Positions 22,280 through 50,999 of a stretch of 64,000 nucleotides of DNA are shown in pieces. Below the pieces are notes generated by a model, which was not told where the DNA came from, did not search any database, and saw nothing but the letters and a program-made list of their open reading frames with translations. The DNA lies in IMG/VR virus record IMGVR_UViG_3300008119_000039, positions 20,522 through 84,521 of that record; one strand, given 5' to 3'. How positions within the stretch are numbered: position 1 is the first letter of the stretch; every line of letters starts with the position of its first letter. Position numbers and translations under genes: made by a program. Source of the stretch: a virus.

Positions 22280-22709
22280 TGCATTTATGGATACAGCTGA
22301 GAGATTTGCTCAGCTATCCAGTGCGAAACGATTGAAGGTAGGTTCGGTAGTTGTAAAAGACAATCGTATCATCTCAATCGGATACAATGGTATGCCTGCT
22401 GGGTGGGACAACTCATGCGAAGAAGTCATTGAGGTTCATGAAGATGGTGGAGTTGTAACTAAGACAAAAGATGAGGTAATTCATGCTGAAGCAAATGCTA
22501 TTCTCAAGTTGGCACGTGATGGTGAATCAGGCAATGGTTCCATTTTATTCTGTACTCATGCTCCTTGCGTACAATGTGCTAAATTAATCCACGGAGCAGG
22601 CATAAGTAAGATGTATTACCGAGATTCATACCGTGACGAACTTGGTATAGATTTTTTAAAGAAGTGTAATATTGAAGTTATTAAGATAAAGGAAATAGAA
22701 AATGAGTAA
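22260..22709 (+). CDS. cd: dCMP deaminase
   Basis: 149 residues from the ATG at 22260, chosen because GGAG sits six bases upstream; an earlier in-frame ATG at 22248 has none. Zinc and catalytic residues are present: HAE at 75-77 and PCVQC at 102-106. It converts dCMP to dUMP, feeding ThyX. Overlaps the previous gene by 20 bases and the next by eight. Confidence 0.93.
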   Translation: MKQKWVDAFMDTAERFAQLSSAKRLKVGSVVVKDNRIISIGYNGMPAGWDNSCEEVIEVHEDGGVVTKTKDEVIHAEANAILKLARDGESGNGSILFCTHAPCVQCAKLIHGAGISKMYYRDSYRDELGIDFLKKCNIEVIKIKEIENE

Positions 22710-23142
22710 AAATTTAAAAGGTACAATTACCGAGCAATCTTTAAAAGATGCATTCGCTGGTGAATCAAAAGCTAATCGTCGCTATTTGTATTTTGCAAAC
22801 ATGGCTGATATTGCTGGTGCACAAGATGTTGCATCAGTATTCCGTCACACAGCTGAAGGTGAAACTGGTCATGCCCATGGTCACATGGAGTATTTGATCG
22901 CTGGTGGTAGTGGAGATCCAGAAACAGGTTTACCTGCAGGTGATGTGGTTCAAGCATTGGAAAGTGCCATTGCTGGTGAGACACACGAGTATACAGATAT
23001 GTATCCAGGTATGGCTAAAGCTGCACGTGATGAAGGTTTTGACGAGATCGCCGATTGGTTCGAGACTTTAGCTAAGGCAGAACGTAGTCACGCTAACAAG
23101 TTTACCAAAACATTGGCAGCGTACAAAGCAGAACAAGCCTAA
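22702..23142 (+). CDS. Rubrerythrin-like diiron protein
   Basis: 146 residues of the ferritin-like rubrerythrin four-helix domain. Ligand motifs: Glu21 ([12 protein letters not shown]), Glu54/His57 ([10 protein letters not shown]), a Glu in IAGETHEY and an Glu/His in [10 protein letters not shown]. The C-terminal rubredoxin domain is absent, so this is the short form. Family members reduce peroxide or sense redox state. It is encoded beside dCMP deaminase and 5 kb from an Fe-S assembly operon. Confidence 0.9.
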
Positions 23143-24399: not shown

Positions 24400-25293
24400 A
24401 TGAAAAAGTTTTTATTTATTGTATTGATGGGCATTTCTAGTATTGCATCTGCAACCCAGCAAGTTCCAAGTCTATGGGCATTTAACATTGCCAACACTCA
24501 AGGCACTTACTATCGTGCATTGCTTGAACAAGCAAATCAGAATCAAACAAAGTATCAATTCATCCCTGAGCATAAGCCAGGAGCAGGTGGTTCTATTGCT
24601 GCTGGGTATGTAAACAACAGCGATCGACTTACACTACTTGGTACTGCTGCAGCATTTTTTGTTCGCCCACATTTATACGATAATGCTGGTTATACCTTTG
24701 ATCAATTCAAACCTGTATATCTTATTGCAAATAGTCCTGTGGCGTTGACATCAAAGAGTAAAGATTTAAAAACAATTTTAGCTCAAAAGAAAATTTCAAT
24801 TGGCACTGCTGGTCCTGGATCTGGAACTCACCTTTATGCATTAAAGTTTAAGGCTCGCCACCCAAACAAAGACATATTAGTAGTTCCATACAAAAGCAGC
24901 ACAGAAGCAATTCAAGATGTTCTTGGTGGTCACATTGACTTAGCGTATGAATTTCTTGGTGATGCTGAAGCCAAGGGTGTTAAAGTCTTGGGTACTACTG
25001 GCACAAAAAAGATTAAGAACTATCCATTGTTAAAAGATATGGGATATCCAGATAATGCACAACTTATTGGAATCTATCACATCTTAGTTAAGAAAGACGT
25101 TTCTGATGAAGTCGTTAGAGAACTACGAGAAATTTTCAATGAAGCAGAAAAGTCAGTAAGATTTCAAGAGTTGTATAAATCTGACTCGTCATTTAAACCT
25201 GTATTAAAAACTGATAAAGATTACACTGATTGGTACAATAATACTATCAAAACAAATAGATCTCTTATTACACCAGATATGAAACTAGACTAA
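24400..25293 (+). CDS. Bug/TctC-family periplasmic solute-binding protein
   Basis: 297 residues with a Sec signal peptide (about 1-18). The family motif KPGAGGS is at residues 59-65; GTAGPGSGTHLYALKF and the YEFLGDAEAKG region are also typical. Bug proteins bind carboxylates, amino acids or vitamins for tripartite transporters (TctAB), which are not encoded here, so it would use host membrane subunits or act alone. The family is heavily expanded in Burkholderiales, supporting a betaproteobacterial host. Confidence 0.85.
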   Translation: MKKFLFIVLMGISSIASATQQVPSLWAFNIANTQGTYYRALLEQANQNQTKYQFIPEHKPGAGGSIAAGYVNNSDRLTLLGTAAAFFVRPHLYDNAGYTFDQFKPVYLIANSPVALTSKSKDLKTILAQKKISIGTAGPGSGTHLYALKFKARHPNKDILVVPYKSSTEAIQDVLGGHIDLAYEFLGDAEAKGVKVLGTTGTKKIKNYPLLKDMGYPDNAQLIGIYHILVKKDVSDEVVRELREIFNEAEKSVRFQELYKSDSSFKPVLKTDKDYTDWYNNTIKTNRSLITPDMKLD

Positions 25294-27253: not shown

Positions 27254-27643
27254 ATGGCATACTCAGATAAAGTAATAGATCACTACGAAAACCCACGAAA
27301 TGTGGGTTCTTTCTCCAAAGAAGAGGAAGGTGTAGGAACAGGCATGGTTGGCGCACCAGCGTGTGGCGACGTGATGAAACTTCAAATTAAGGTGGATGCA
27401 GATGGCATTATTAGAGATGCTCGTTTCAAGACATATGGCTGCGGTTCAGCAATCGCCAGTTCGTCGCTGGTTACAGAGTTGGTTAAGGGTATGCACATTG
27501 ATGCTGCTAGTAGCATATCTAACTCTGAAATCGCACAAGAACTAGCCTTACCTCCAGTAAAGATTCACTGCTCAATCCTAGCAGAAGATGCCATCAAAGC
27601 AGCAGTTGCAGATTATAAAGCAAAGAATGATAACACTAACTGA
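27254..27643 (+). CDS. iscU: Fe-S cluster scaffold IscU
   Basis: 129 residues, normal length for IscU. The three cluster-ligand cysteines (Cys37, Cys63, Cys106) and Asp39 (PACGDV) are present, and the HscA-recognition motif LPPVK is intact before KIHC. It assembles [2Fe-2S] clusters delivered by a cysteine desulfurase; none is encoded in the window, so host IscS is presumably used. First of three coupled Fe-S genes. Confidence 0.93.
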   Translation: MAYSDKVIDHYENPRNVGSFSKEEEGVGTGMVGAPACGDVMKLQIKVDADGIIRDARFKTYGCGSAIASSSLVTELVKGMHIDAASSISNSEIAQELALPPVKIHCSILAEDAIKAAVADYKAKNDNTN

Positions 27644-27947
27644 GATTGCAGCAGCAAAGATTACATCTCATCTATCTAAAAGAAAAACTGGAATTGGAAT
27701 TAGGTTAGGTGTTAGAACAACAGGGTGTTCTGGCTTGGCTTACATTTTAGAATACGCTGACAAGTTGGAAGATACAGATGTTGTTTATGAAGATCGTGGC
27801 ATAAAATTGATTGTCGATCCAAAAAGTTTAGTATACCTAAGTGGAATGATAGTTGATTATGTACGAAATGGTCTGAACGAAGGATTTGAATTCAGTAACC
27901 CAAATGAACGTGACCGATGTGGTTGCGGAGAAAGTTTCAGGATATGA
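27627..27947 (+). CDS. iscA: A-type Fe-S carrier IscA-like
   Basis: 106 residues from the ATG at 27627, overlapping iscU by 17 bases. The three A-type cysteines are present: Cys34 (TGCSGLAY) and Cys98/Cys100 (RCGCGESF). It transfers clusters from IscU to apo-targets. Overlaps the next carrier by four bases. Confidence 0.9.
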   Translation: MITLTEIAAAKITSHLSKRKTGIGIRLGVRTTGCSGLAYILEYADKLEDTDVVYEDRGIKLIVDPKSLVYLSGMIVDYVRNGLNEGFEFSNPNERDRCGCGESFRI

Positions 27948-28249
27948 TAACAATCACAGAAAACGCTACTGCTAAAATTACAGACTTGCTGGCTGAACAC
28001 CAAGAACCATACATGCGCATTTCAGTTAAGGGTGGTGGATGTTCAGGTTTCTCATACGCATTTGGTTTTGAGTCACTTAAAGATGAAAGTGACTTTGAAC
28101 TCGGTACAGTTCTTGTAGATTCTATGAGCATGCAATACTTGCAGGGTGGTACTGTTGACTATACTGAGGACTTGATGGGTGCTGCATTTAAAGTGTCTAA
28201 TCCAAACGCAACTTCTACTTGTGGTTGTGGCTCCAGCTTTGCAGCATAA
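27944..28249 (+). CDS. erpA: Second A-type Fe-S carrier, ErpA-like
   Basis: 101 residues from the ATG at 27944. Cys33 (GGCSGFSY) and Cys93/Cys95 (TCGCGSSF) are the carrier ligands. It differs enough from its upstream neighbour to be a distinct subtype, and the FGFES and GAAFKVSNPNA segments are ErpA-like. It completes an IscU-IscA-ErpA operon. Confidence 0.88.
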   Translation: MITITENATAKITDLLAEHQEPYMRISVKGGGCSGFSYAFGFESLKDESDFELGTVLVDSMSMQYLQGGTVDYTEDLMGAAFKVSNPNATSTCGCGSSFAA

Positions 28250-30156: not shown

Positions 30157-30232
30157 GCCCCAGTAGCTCATTTGGTAGAGCAACTGATTAGTAATCAGTA
30201 GGTGGGCGGTTCGAATCCGTCCTGGGGCACCA
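30157..30232 (+). tRNA. tRNA-Thr (AGU), unusual A34
   Basis: Acceptor GCCCCAG pairs with CTGGGGC, then ACCA; the D stem GCTC/GAGC is intact. The anticodon stem ACTGA/TCAGT encloses TTAGTAA, so the anticodon is AGT at 30190-30192. A34 is rare in bacterial tRNAs outside tRNA-Arg(ACG). Confidence 0.85.
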
Positions 30233-35760: not shown

Positions 35761-35955
35761 ATGACAGAACCACTATCATTTAAAGAGCAATGGGAAGCAA
35801 AGAAGCTACTCAAGAAGTCAAAGAAGAAAGCACGCAATAATGCCATGAAGGAACACGGCATGACCAAAAGCGAAGCTACCTCGGCAGTTAAAAAAGCAGT
35901 AGGTCGCATTGCTTCAAACAAACCAACCACACGTTCAGCTGGTAGAGGTCGATAA
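35761..35955 (+). CDS. Small basic protein
   Basis: 64 residues with AAGGAG at ideal spacing. Lysine-rich (KKLLKKSKKKARNN), ending in RSAGRGR. Probably nucleic-acid-binding. Ends TAATG with the Bug-family gene. Confidence 0.6.
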   Translation: MTEPLSFKEQWEAKKLLKKSKKKARNNAMKEHGMTKSEATSAVKKAVGRIASNKPTTRSAGRGR

Positions 35956-36833
35956 TGCGTTTATTTGTTATGGTGGTATCGCTGCTATTAAGCACAGTAG
36001 TTACAGCCCAAGAAACTGTGCGTATCTATAGTCCGTACTCAGCAACGCATTCTGGTACGCCAGCAATGTACCGTATTATTGAAGAAGCCAATAAGTCTCA
36101 GAACATCTATAAGTTTATTCTTGAGTTCAAACCAGGTGGTAACCAGATTATTGCTCTGAAAGCCATGGACGAAAACAGTCTAGGTATTATTGCACCTGCA
36201 TTCGTTGAGAACGTAAACAAAGGTGCTATCAAAGAAGAATACATTCCCATTCATACCATCGGTGACGCATGCTGGGTAGTTATTACCAATGGTTCAATTA
36301 AGGGCATCAAGGAACTAACAGTTGGTGGTGTGGGTTTTGGTAACTCGGCTCACCTAACTGGTTTATCCATGGGTGAAAAGTACGGATTTGCAGTTCGATA
36401 TATTGTTTTTAAATCCAACAACGATGCTCTGGTAAATATGGCAGGCAATAATGGCGTAACTATGGTTGTTGATCGTTGGGAAGCATATGAAGCAATGAAA
36501 ACCAAGAATCCAAATCTAGAAGCATTCGCAGCATCTTGTCCAACCAGATTACCCCAAGCACCAAAGTTAAAGACACTGGCAGAAATGGGAATCCGTGCAC
36601 CATACGTATTTAACATTACAGTTGCACCAAAGTCAATGGATTTTGTAAAGCGTAGAGTTATTGGCATTATACTAAACGATGCTCAGAACAAAGTTGGAGC
36701 AGATGAGATATTCAAGATCTCAGGTATGAAGATACCAAAAGAATCTCCTGAGCAATTCTATACAAAATCAATTAATACGGTACGCACGCTACAAGATAAG
36801 TATCGTAAAGAAATCGAGGAAGCCAGTCGATGA
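35955..36833 (+). CDS. Second Bug/TctC-like periplasmic solute-binding protein
   Basis: 292 residues with a signal peptide (about 1-18, cut near TAQ-ET). The FKPGGNQIIALKAM region corresponds to the PGAGG loop of the family, but lacks the GAGG. VGGVGFGNSAHLTGLSMG and TLAEMGIRAPYVFN follow the Bug order. It is divergent from the copy at 24400, so probably a different ligand. No transporter subunits are encoded nearby. Confidence 0.75.
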   Translation: MRLFVMVVSLLLSTVVTAQETVRIYSPYSATHSGTPAMYRIIEEANKSQNIYKFILEFKPGGNQIIALKAMDENSLGIIAPAFVENVNKGAIKEEYIPIHTIGDACWVVITNGSIKGIKELTVGGVGFGNSAHLTGLSMGEKYGFAVRYIVFKSNNDALVNMAGNNGVTMVVDRWEAYEAMKTKNPNLEAFAASCPTRLPQAPKLKTLAEMGIRAPYVFNITVAPKSMDFVKRRVIGIILNDAQNKVGADEIFKISGMKIPKESPEQFYTKSINTVRTLQDKYRKEIEEASR

Positions 36834-47621: not shown

Positions 47622-48238
47622 TTACAGCAGAACAATTTAAAAAGTTATTCCCAAGAGCACAAGACCATCAGGGATGGGCTAACTCTATGAATGAAGTTTT
47701 CCCAACGTATGATATTAATACACCTCATCGTGTTGCAGCATTTCTTGCTCAATGTGGTCATGAGTCTGGTGGTTGGACTACTTTTGAAGAAAACCTAAAC
47801 TACTCTGCAAAGGGTTTGAATGGTATCTTTAAAAAGTATTTTCCCACACTTGAATCTGCTGTGCCATATGAACGTAAGCCAGAAATGATTGCCAATAAAG
47901 TTTATGGTGGTCGTATGGGTAATGGTCCAGAATCATCTGGTGATGGTTGGAAGTATCGTGGACGTGGTCCGATTCAGCTTACTGGTAAAGCAAACTATAT
48001 GGCGTTTGCCAAAGAAATGTTTGATGACTGGGAAAATCTTTTTGAGAATCCAGATTGGGTTACTGCAGATCGTGACTTTGCTCTTATGTCTGCTATTTGG
48101 TTTTGGAATAAGAATGGTTTGAATCGCTACGCAGATCAAGGTGATATTAAAACTATGACTCGTATTATCAATGGTGGTTACATTGGTCTTGAAGATCGCA
48201 TTCACCACTATGAGGAAGCAATTCACTTACTTACATAA
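47618..48238 (+). CDS. GH19 chitinase-like endolysin
   Basis: 206 residues. The GH19 catalytic Glu lies in CGHESGGWTTFEENLNY; YRGRGPIQLTGKANY and RIINGGY are further signatures. No signal peptide, so it needs a holin to reach the peptidoglycan. It cleaves the MurNAc-GlcNAc backbone. A second cell-wall hydrolase is encoded at 49941. Confidence 0.9.
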   Translation: MITAEQFKKLFPRAQDHQGWANSMNEVFPTYDINTPHRVAAFLAQCGHESGGWTTFEENLNYSAKGLNGIFKKYFPTLESAVPYERKPEMIANKVYGGRMGNGPESSGDGWKYRGRGPIQLTGKANYMAFAKEMFDDWENLFENPDWVTADRDFALMSAIWFWNKNGLNRYADQGDIKTMTRIINGGYIGLEDRIHHYEEAIHLLT

Positions 48239-48891
48239 TGAAAACATTTATACATCATGATCTACCCAAACTTGAACGTGACACAAAATCTGATGGTACG
48301 AGATTATACAAAACCCCATCAGGTAAATCCTATCCCTCCGTTACGACAGTTACAGGATTGCACTCAGCAAAGGGGATCATGGAATGGCGAAACAGAGTCG
48401 GAGAAGCAGAAGCCAACCGAATCTCTGGAAGAGCCAGTGCGAGAGGCACAAGAATCCACCAACACTGCGAAGACTTTCTCCTTGGAGAACATGTTGAGCC
48501 AGATATGTTTGATGCAGAGATGTTCAACTCAATCAAACCCCTGCTTGACCAAGTCGACAACATTCACTGCTTGGAAGATGCGTTATATTCTGACCACTTA
48601 CAAGTCGCTGGAACAGTGGACTGCATCGCAGAATTCCAAGGTAAACTTAGTGTTATAGATTTTAAAACATCAAGCAAACCAAAAGATCGTGATGATATTC
48701 ATAACTACTTTATGCAGACTGCAGCTTATGCTGTTGCATTTGAAGAACTAACAGGTATTCCTATTGGCAGACTTGTAATCATTATGGCAGTAGACAATGA
48801 TGATCCTCGTTGGTTTATTGAAAAGCGAGATAATTGGATTGGTGGATTTAAAAAGCTAAGATTAGACTATAAAAATAAATTTGCTATATAA
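48238..48891 (+). CDS. PD-(D/E)XK exonuclease, Cas4/RecB-like
   Basis: 217 residues. The nuclease core reads GTVDC ... LSVIDFKTSSK, with a helix YFMQTAAYAVAFEE after it (RecB-type QxxxY region). An upstream RGTRIHQHCEDFL supplies the conserved His. No Fe-S cysteines, unlike Cas4. Likely DNA processing or recombination. Its stop overlaps the tmRNA promoter. Confidence 0.82.
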   Translation: MKTFIHHDLPKLERDTKSDGTRLYKTPSGKSYPSVTTVTGLHSAKGIMEWRNRVGEAEANRISGRASARGTRIHQHCEDFLLGEHVEPDMFDAEMFNSIKPLLDQVDNIHCLEDALYSDHLQVAGTVDCIAEFQGKLSVIDFKTSSKPKDRDDIHNYFMQTAAYAVAFEELTGIPIGRLVIIMAVDNDDPRWFIEKRDNWIGGFKKLRLDYKNKFAI

Positions 48892-48909
48892 ATAACTATA
48901 AGGTATAAT
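48881..48909 (+). promoter_or_regulatory. Promoter of the permuted tmRNA
   Basis: TTGCTA, 17 bases, TATAAT, with the start expected near 48916. A TATAAATA octamer (48887-48894) lies inside the spacer, so a second, late start is possible. Confidence 0.75.
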
Positions 48910-48915
48910 TAAGGT

Positions 48916-48980
48916 TATTGCTGTATGAAGCAAAGAGAAAGGTGTTCTGGACGAGGGTTCGATTCCCTCCACCTCCACCA
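48916..48980 (+). ncRNA. ssrA: tmRNA acceptor (3') piece of a permuted two-piece tmRNA
   Basis: Encodes the 3' half that normally ends tmRNA: a helix strand (GCTGT at 48920-48924), a GGAC segment, the T-arm GAGGG-TTCGATT-CCCTC, then acceptor strand CACCTCC and ACCA. The acceptor strand pairs, with one G-U, with GGGGGTG at 49119-49125, which lies downstream instead of upstream. This is the circularly permuted order, so the mature RNA is two separate pieces. Precedes the coding piece by 138 bases. Confidence 0.88.
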
Positions 48981-48991
48981 GAAAGGATTTT

Positions 48992-49117
48992 ATGGAAAAC
49001 TTGATTTTGTTAGTATTAATTGTAGTGCTAAACGTATACTGGGTTTATAGTTTAGTTACTTATGATTGGAGTAATTTTGAAAAAGATCAAGAGCAAGCCA
49101 AGAAAGATTTTTTCTGA
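48992..49117 (+). CDS. 41-residue membrane protein encoded between the tmRNA pieces
   Basis: ATG at 48992 with GAAAGGA upstream. One hydrophobic helix (about 4-25) and a charged tail (NFEKDQEQAKKDFF). The TGA ends one base before the tmRNA coding piece begins. In known permuted tmRNAs the intervening segment is short and removed by processing; here it appears to carry a gene. Confidence 0.6.
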   Translation: MENLILLVLIVVLNVYWVYSLVTYDWSNFEKDQEQAKKDFF

Positions 49118-49118
49118 T

Positions 49119-49306
49119 GGGGGTGACTAGGTTTCGACAGGGCAACAAGTAAACAAGTGGACAGCACGGGAATGTGAAACCCGTAGGATTGGGGAAACTC
49201 GGTCGCAGAAGCAAAAAACGTAAATGCAAACGACGCACAGTTCGCTTTAGCAGCCTAAACACTGCTTAGGGTTTCGATAGGTTTCCTCGTAACAGAATAA
49301 CCTATC
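49119..49306 (+). ncRNA. ssrA: tmRNA coding (5') piece with tag ANDAQFALAA
   Basis: Starts GGGGGTGACTAGGTTTCGACAGG, the canonical tmRNA 5' end. The tag frame runs 49226-49258, encoding ANDAQFALAA with GCA as the resume codon. Just after it, CCTAA (49254-49258) pairs with TTAGG (49266-49270), and an eight-base-pair helix GATAGGTT/AACCTATC (49276-49306) ends the piece. ACAGC at 49161 can pair with GCTGT of the acceptor piece. It rescues stalled ribosomes with SmpB, presumably from the host; none is visible here. Confidence 0.93.
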
Positions 49307-49329
49307 ACTAATTCTAAAAGGATATTCAA

Positions 49330-49536
49330 ATGAAGAAATTTTTAATTGCACTAAACTTAGTCATCTGGTCATTTGTTGGTTATCAAGTTACCGCATATGC
49401 AGCTGAACCAGCAAAGAAAGAAGTCCCTGCTGGGCAAAATGATAATTGCGTAAAGAAAGACAAGAATGGTAAGTGCCCACCTCTACCAAAGAGTGAAAAG
49501 CCAACACCTAAGAAAAAAGTAGAAGATAAGAAGTAA
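49330..49536 (+). CDS. Small exported Lys/Pro-rich protein
   Basis: 68 residues with AAAAGGA upstream. Signal peptide about 1-24 (AYAAEPA), then two cysteines around KKDKNGK and a Lys/Pro-rich tail. Periplasmic; unknown role. Confidence 0.65.
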   Translation: MKKFLIALNLVIWSFVGYQVTAYAAEPAKKEVPAGQNDNCVKKDKNGKCPPLPKSEKPTPKKKVEDKK

Positions 49537-50441: not shown

Positions 50442-50999
50442 ATGATGCAAAAACTGAATCTGCAGTTAAAGGATGAGCAATCTGCACATTCATTCTTTAT
50501 ATTGATGGAAGATATTTCATTATCTACCTGCAAACAAGCCATTGAATGGATCCTTGAAGCAAACTTTTCTGAAGAGCGACCAGATATGTTAAACCTACTT
50601 GTGTGTTCTCCAGGTGGTGATTTAAATGCTGCATTTGCTCTAGTTGATACTATGCGTGGTTCAGCTATTCCAGTTCGCACGATTGGTCTTGGTCAAATTG
50701 CATCCGCAGGATTGTTAATTTTTATTAGTGGTGAAAAGGGTCAACGTATTCTTACTCCAAATACTTCAATTCTTTCGCATCAATATTCTTGGGGTGCTTT
50801 TGGTAAGGAGCATGAGTTGTTTGCTACTATTAGAGAGTTTGATTTAACAACCAAGCGTATGATTGCTCACTATAAAAAATGCAGTGGTCTTACAGAACAA
50901 AAAATTCGTGAAGTATTACTTCCACCGCAAGACGTTTGGTTGTCTGCGCCAGAAGCTAAAAAATTAGGATTGTGCGATGACGTTAAAGATCTTAAGTAA
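50442..50999 (+). CDS. ClpP-like serine protease
   Basis: 185 residues. CSPGGDL is the oxyanion-strand motif; the catalytic Ser is Ser88 (GQIASAG) and His113 (LSHQYSWG), with an Asp likely in LPPQDVWLS. T4-like phages carry such ClpP-type proteins without a ClpX partner; suggested roles are virion protein processing or host-protein turnover. It starts directly after the SleB-like stop. Confidence 0.85.
   Translation: MMQKLNLQLKDEQSAHSFFILMEDISLSTCKQAIEWILEANFSEERPDMLNLLVCSPGGDLNAAFALVDTMRGSAIPVRTIGLGQIASAGLLIFISGEKGQRILTPNTSILSHQYSWGAFGKEHELFATIREFDLTTKRMIAHYKKCSGLTEQKIREVLLPPQDVWLSAPEAKKLGLCDDVKDLK

Follow-up and report, generated by a model that had tools for sequence, protein, structure and literature searches.

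The intervening segment of a permuted tmRNA gene in T4-like phages probably doubles as a slot for small protein genes

The DNA analysed here (the window, 64,000 nucleotides) comprises bases 20522-84521 of an 84,521-base IMG/VR virus record, and the nuclease, tmRNA, nested and ClpP-like genes described here lie on its plus strand. Directly downstream of a PDDEXK nuclease gene (48238..48891), which is a conserved synteny marker, lies a tmRNA gene in permuted order. The 3' tRNA-like half, or acceptor piece (48919..48980), comes first and contains a P2 strand (48919-48924), a T-arm (48953-48969), the acceptor 3' strand CACCTCC (48970-48976) and an encoded ACCA (48977-48980). An intervening segment (IVS) of 138 bases (48981..49118) separates it from the mRNA-like 5' half (49119..49310), in which the acceptor 5' strand GGGGGTG (49119-49125) and the second P2 strand (49161-49166) are followed by a tag reading frame, GCA...TAA (49226..49258), that encodes ANDAQFALAA and a stop. 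Both halves are delimited by sequence, ARAGORN, Rfam and a 30-sequence alignment, the 3' end of the mature 5' half being uncertain (the Rfam beta match ends at 49311, the ARAGORN call at 49349). A sequence-only reading of this stretch had named the T-arm, CACCTCC, ACCA, the 138-base gap, GGGGGTG and the tag, with coordinates that all hold, and had proposed a circularly permuted, presumably two-piece tmRNA encoded by a T4-like phage, to be checked with tmRNA covariance models. ARAGORN agrees with this assignment, calling a permuted 'tmRNA*' with the tag ANDAQFALAA, and so do two Rfam models, both above their gathering scores: RF04321 tmRNA_permuted (120.4 bits, E 5.8e-23), which matches over its full length (model positions 1-213 of 213) and spans the whole tRNA-like domain in permuted order, and RF01850 beta_tmRNA (96.1 bits, E 6.9e-28). 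A candidate T4 late promoter, TATAAATA, at 48887-48894 was set aside as evidence, as it is present in only 4 of 134 relatives.

The pairings that join the two halves are maintained through compensatory change. In the 30-sequence alignment, 93.8% of the cells in P2 (TGCTGT/ACAGCA), acceptor, T and an additional IVS stem are paired, and the covariation score of these four helices is 0.44, vs. 0.16 in shuffles (0/500) and 0.08-0.16 when the helices are slid. The acceptor strands, which the earlier reading had paired across the permutation, occur in several versions with matching partners: GGGGGTG/CACCTCC (88), GGGGATG/CATCTCC (40), GGGGCTG/CAGCTCC (7) and GGGGCAG/CTGCTCC (1). The P2 link, claimed by the same reading, likewise covaries across the 30 relatives; a crude run-length test detected P2 only weakly, and the P2 count was taken from the aligned pairs instead. 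A G.U at the third acceptor pair is an alanine identity element. This pair (G3.U70) is G.U in all 30 aligned sequences, and the ACCA, with its discriminator A, is invariant. A group I intron tmRNA with an endonuclease gene was considered and rejected, the T-loop TTCGATT being continuous and Rfam giving no intron match. Taken together, a beta-type circularly permuted tmRNA of a known kind in a T4-like phage is confirmed. Across the phage group alignment P2 and its neighbouring strands come in two versions (GAAGC and CCCTTC types), which suggests mosaic tmRNAs.

Phages of this group carry the tmRNA as a regular feature. Among 80 relatives gathered via the upstream PDDEXK nuclease gene, ARAGORN finds a permuted tmRNA in 73, with tags that are nearly all AND...LAA in form. 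The same tmRNA is present in other IMG/VR contigs of separate metagenomes and is therefore not an assembly artefact. All sequences compared are metagenomic except that of the related marine phage Melnitz, whose nuclease, also upstream of a permuted tmRNA, is 38% identical to that of the window. These observations bear on the earlier suggestion that the tmRNA was captured from the host which, taken as a recent event, found no support in our tests. A recently captured host gene without phage function would explain the match to the betaproteobacterial tmRNA model, but we see practically no chance of it: the occurrence at one locus in most of the 80 relatives, with compensatory changes, largely contradicts it already, and the bacterial permuted tmRNAs sampled (n=33) have IVSs of 5-55 bases with no ORF. 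Beyond the T-arm, the window tmRNA has no close relative among annotated phage records. The exact beta-type T-arm of the window is absent from 84,980 bacterial and archaeal genomes, so the host was not traced by this route. The window also encodes two TctC (Bug-type) periplasmic receptor-like proteins (24400-25293 and 35955-36833). Such receptors are abundant in Burkholderiales, and the genes give a hint of a host in that order. Other genes in the window include a rubrerythrin (22702-23142), a NifU/IscU-like gene (27254-28249) followed by two genes resembling A-type iron-sulphur carriers, and ten phage tRNAs. One of the latter (30157-30232) is a tRNA-Thr with anticodon AGT, and A34 is unusual in bacterial or phage threonine tRNA.

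Downstream of the tmRNA lies a gene for a ClpP-like protease (50442..50999), in which the GxASAG serine, SHQ histidine and GLCD aspartate are visible by eye. In 56 of the 57 relatives with enough sequence a ClpP gene follows the tmRNA at a distance of 1.1-3.4 kb, and one is present in 11 of 12 large records, the completeness of which is not certified. This neighbourhood would fit a tag-and-degrade link between tmRNA and ClpP. In none of the same 12 large relatives did we find an SmpB gene, and the RNA would thus have to use host SmpB. That result could also suit an RNA acting as a decoy, titrating host SmpB or inhibiting host tmRNA, for which there is a precedent in the proposal made for the tRNA-like RNA of mycobacteriophage DS6A, as cited in two papers (PMC4131195, PMC11915505). 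We consider a decoy very unlikely, since it would have no need of the tag frame, resume region, P2 or G.U identity pair, every one of which is retained.

The 138 bases between the halves had been taken for a spacer, and a conserved protein gene lies there instead. It occupies 48992..49117, encodes a 41-aa protein with a single predicted transmembrane segment, MENLILLVLIVVLNVYWVYSLVTYDWSNFEKDQEQAKKDFF, and nearly fills the IVS: the ATG is 11 bases past the CCA and the TGA stop 1 base 5' of the tmRNA 5' half. A ribosome-binding-site-like GAAAGGA (48981..48987) lies 4 bases 5' of the ATG, within a predicted IVS stem. Judged as a single sequence, the window ORF has a chance of arising at random that is not negligible, as such an ORF survives in 2.1% of shuffles of the IVS interior, and the case rests on comparison. 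Between diverged copies of the 41-aa family pN/pS is 0.17-0.44, with pS up to 0.8 (a near-identical pair aside), and the pooled value is 0.26 in frame vs. 0.80 and 1.31 in the other frames. Homologues are nested in both beta-type and alpha-type permuted tmRNAs, and further ones lie 27-37 bases upstream of a tmRNA's tRNA-like domain, or elsewhere. In one relative (L259) the 41-aa gene is 31 bases upstream of the tRNA-like domain, and another ORF, of 63 aa, occupies the IVS. Annotated phage records yielded no homologue of the 41-aa protein, and Pfam and PHROGs gave no usable function for the nested proteins. The frame-specific purifying selection indicates that the nested frame is a real gene under selection at the protein level, and we predict that it is translated.

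Other phages of the group have different ORFs in the same slot, typically with the ATG 10-15 bases past the CCA and the stop 1 or 12 bases before G1. Of 76 beta-type phage IVSs at least 90 bases long, 20 have a slot-filling ORF (shuffled interiors: mean 2.5, maximum 7), as do 43 of 113 alpha-type phage IVSs (shuffle mean 7.0, maximum 16). With slightly looser criteria than for the 20 of 76, the beta-type slots hold at least 15 unrelated sequence clusters, five of which contain two or more distinct proteins. This count covers beta-type tmRNAs, the alpha-type ones being missed because their T-loop differs, and the alpha-type slots add more small-protein clusters. Pooled pN/pS of three families is 0.26, 0.26 and 0.23 in frame vs. 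0.75-2.11 in other frames; a 38-aa family with 12 distinct sequences has a median of 0.28. A 54-aa protein has a homologue outside tmRNA, with a different end, and homologues of the 38-aa and 41-aa MYYV proteins were not found in annotated phage records. In two relatives (L257 and L260; IVS of 135 bases), an IVS ORF starting MVVCSCRDIRDSHF...CCGKC continues into the 5' half and shows a likeness to bacterioferritin-associated ferredoxin. Could these frames be chance or structure-driven openings in the spacer of an ordinary phage permuted tmRNA? The survival of the window ORF in some shuffles and the conserved TGAT, which gives a stop codon at a fixed place, are what one would then expect, and some of the shorter alpha-type ORFs surely are chance; the recurrent families are not. 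For the window such a reading is scarcely plausible: the purifying selection specific to the coding frame in three families already contradicts it to a large extent, and homologues outside the IVS and the strong excess over shuffles also count against it. Such an ORF is missing from the majority of phage IVSs, and from the majority in this group, so that tmRNA maturation does not depend on a nested gene.

The segment and the RNA around it can be compared separately. In relatives L365 and L390, the IVS is 100% identical over 200 bases, whereas the 3' halves are 88% and the 5' halves 90% identical, and the flanks are unrelated. Likewise, window-type L344 shares an IVS that is 94% identical with that of L331, with both halves at 70%, and compared with L320 it has a 98% identical 3' half and a 67% identical IVS. 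These identities indicate that the IVS and the tmRNA halves differ in history, and that the segment is an exchangeable cassette.

A feature common to these segments is a stem at their ends. In the predicted fold the first 11 IVS bases (48981-48991) pair with 49104-49114, extending the acceptor helix; 9.56 of 10 positions are paired within sequences vs. 7.5 between sequences, and in the 30-sequence alignment changes are on both sides in 11 of 11 pairs. The last four IVS bases, TGAT, are a conserved leader of the 5' half (109 of 136) that supplies the stop codon of the nested ORF. In ORF-bearing IVSs the ribosome-binding site lies in the 5' strand of the stem and the last codons lie in the 3' strand, from which it would follow that many unrelated nested proteins end in FF, LF, FL or SL; such pairing could limit translation. 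The IVS ends of bacterial permuted tmRNAs pair in a similar way, and the stem is therefore probably an old processing feature. An alternative is that the IVS is regulatory: translation of the nested ORF would compete with precursor folding and processing. Ribosomes at the TGA would cover the 5'-half acceptor strand and open the IVS stem, so that translation tunes tmRNA output, with the peptide minor or secondary. The opposite placement of ribosome-binding site and last codons in the stem, the stop 1 base from G1 and the conserved TGAT stop and leader would all suit such a mechanism, to which we nevertheless give a rather small chance. The proteins are conserved at the residue level and have homologues outside tmRNA, the peptides of different phages are unrelated, and the TGAT leader and stem are equally present in ORF-less phage IVSs, with stem-like ends in short bacterial ones; leader and stem thus probably serve RNA processing first.

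How does this locus compare with known systems? It shares with the permuted tmRNAs of RF04321 and RF01850 the 3'-then-5' order of halves, the acceptor and P2 pairing, the G.U identity pair, the AND...LAA tag and, as predicted here, the absence of the IVS from the mature RNA. A short non-coding IVS is usual in the bacterial sample, though not defining: the IVSs sampled, which include 23 mostly from Rhodocyclales and relatives (3-42 bases), measure 3-55 bases and are without an ORF, whereas that of the window has 138 bases and a protein gene. One bacterial permuted tmRNA (L439, about 1560-1680) has a long IVS that resembles a palindromic repeat insertion and is without an ORF. The sequence-only reading knew of no well-described phage copy, but two-piece phage tmRNAs were published in 2022, for phage Melnitz of an OM43 methylotroph host together with 53 two-piece ARAGORN calls in phage genomes (PMC9004378); a 2025 tmRNA database paper counts 79 phage tmRNAs of all forms (PMC11915505). 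Melnitz (MZ577097) is also a T4-like phage with a homologous PDDEXK nuclease upstream of its permuted tmRNA, and the end stem recurs in its 142-base IVS, along with an ORF that has a ribosome-binding site (about 1077-1220 of our Melnitz sequence, L393) and is absent from the record annotation. It differs in that the tmRNA is alpha-like, in a reported glutamine riboswitch (PMC9004378), and in that its IVS ORF, which extends into the 5' half, encodes a different protein; a weak but recognisable relationship connects this ORF with those in the IVSs of other phages. Group I intron tmRNAs with homing endonuclease genes, as described in PMC11915505, also carry a protein gene in a removed tmRNA segment; there it is a self-splicing T-loop intron with a LAGLIDADG endonuclease, whereas the window has no intron and the slot proteins of phage permuted tmRNAs are tiny and of many unrelated kinds. 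The same paper describes permuted tmRNAs with a tRNA-Ala or a repetitive element in the IVS, where a foreign insert is likewise tolerated; those are single cases of an RNA gene or repeat, whereas the phage slots hold protein genes and recur. A protein gene in a permuted IVS is not reported in the available portion of that paper (PMC11915505), nor did we find one in the open-access literature, the scope of our search. While the phage two-piece tmRNA was already known, the nested, exchangeable slot for small genes looks new.

We consider it very likely that the locus is a beta-type permuted ssrA gene of a T4-like phage in which the excised segment also serves as the site of a small protein gene. 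A single transcript would comprise the acceptor half, the nested 41-codon message and the tag half. Host tRNA-processing enzymes would cut it at the CCA end and, through RNase P, at G1, giving a two-piece tmRNA joined through acceptor and P2 pairing. Charged with alanine and delivered by host SmpB, it would add ANDAQFALAA to proteins on stalled ribosomes, and the phage's own ClpP may help to degrade the tagged proteins. The nested gene would be translated from the precursor or the released segment via its own ribosome-binding site just past the CCA, would take its stop codon from TGAT, the conserved leader of the 5' half, and would yield a small membrane protein. A stronger version, which we regard as unlikely, is that the IVS is a true cassette slot, in which genes are captured, adapt their last codons to pair with the ribosome-binding site and are swapped between tmRNA types, and that tmRNA maturation is coupled to translation reaching the stop at the RNase P site, so that rescue is set by translation.

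If the piece that a housekeeping RNA discards is a coding gene, one transcript would yield both an RNA for ribosome rescue and a small membrane protein, and the removed segment of a permuted RNA gene would be a place for phages to keep and trade small genes. Such nested genes escape gene finders, since the region bears a tmRNA annotation, as it does in Melnitz. The arrangement makes the processing of pre-tmRNA under translation testable, and it links the phage tmRNA with the neighbouring phage ClpP.
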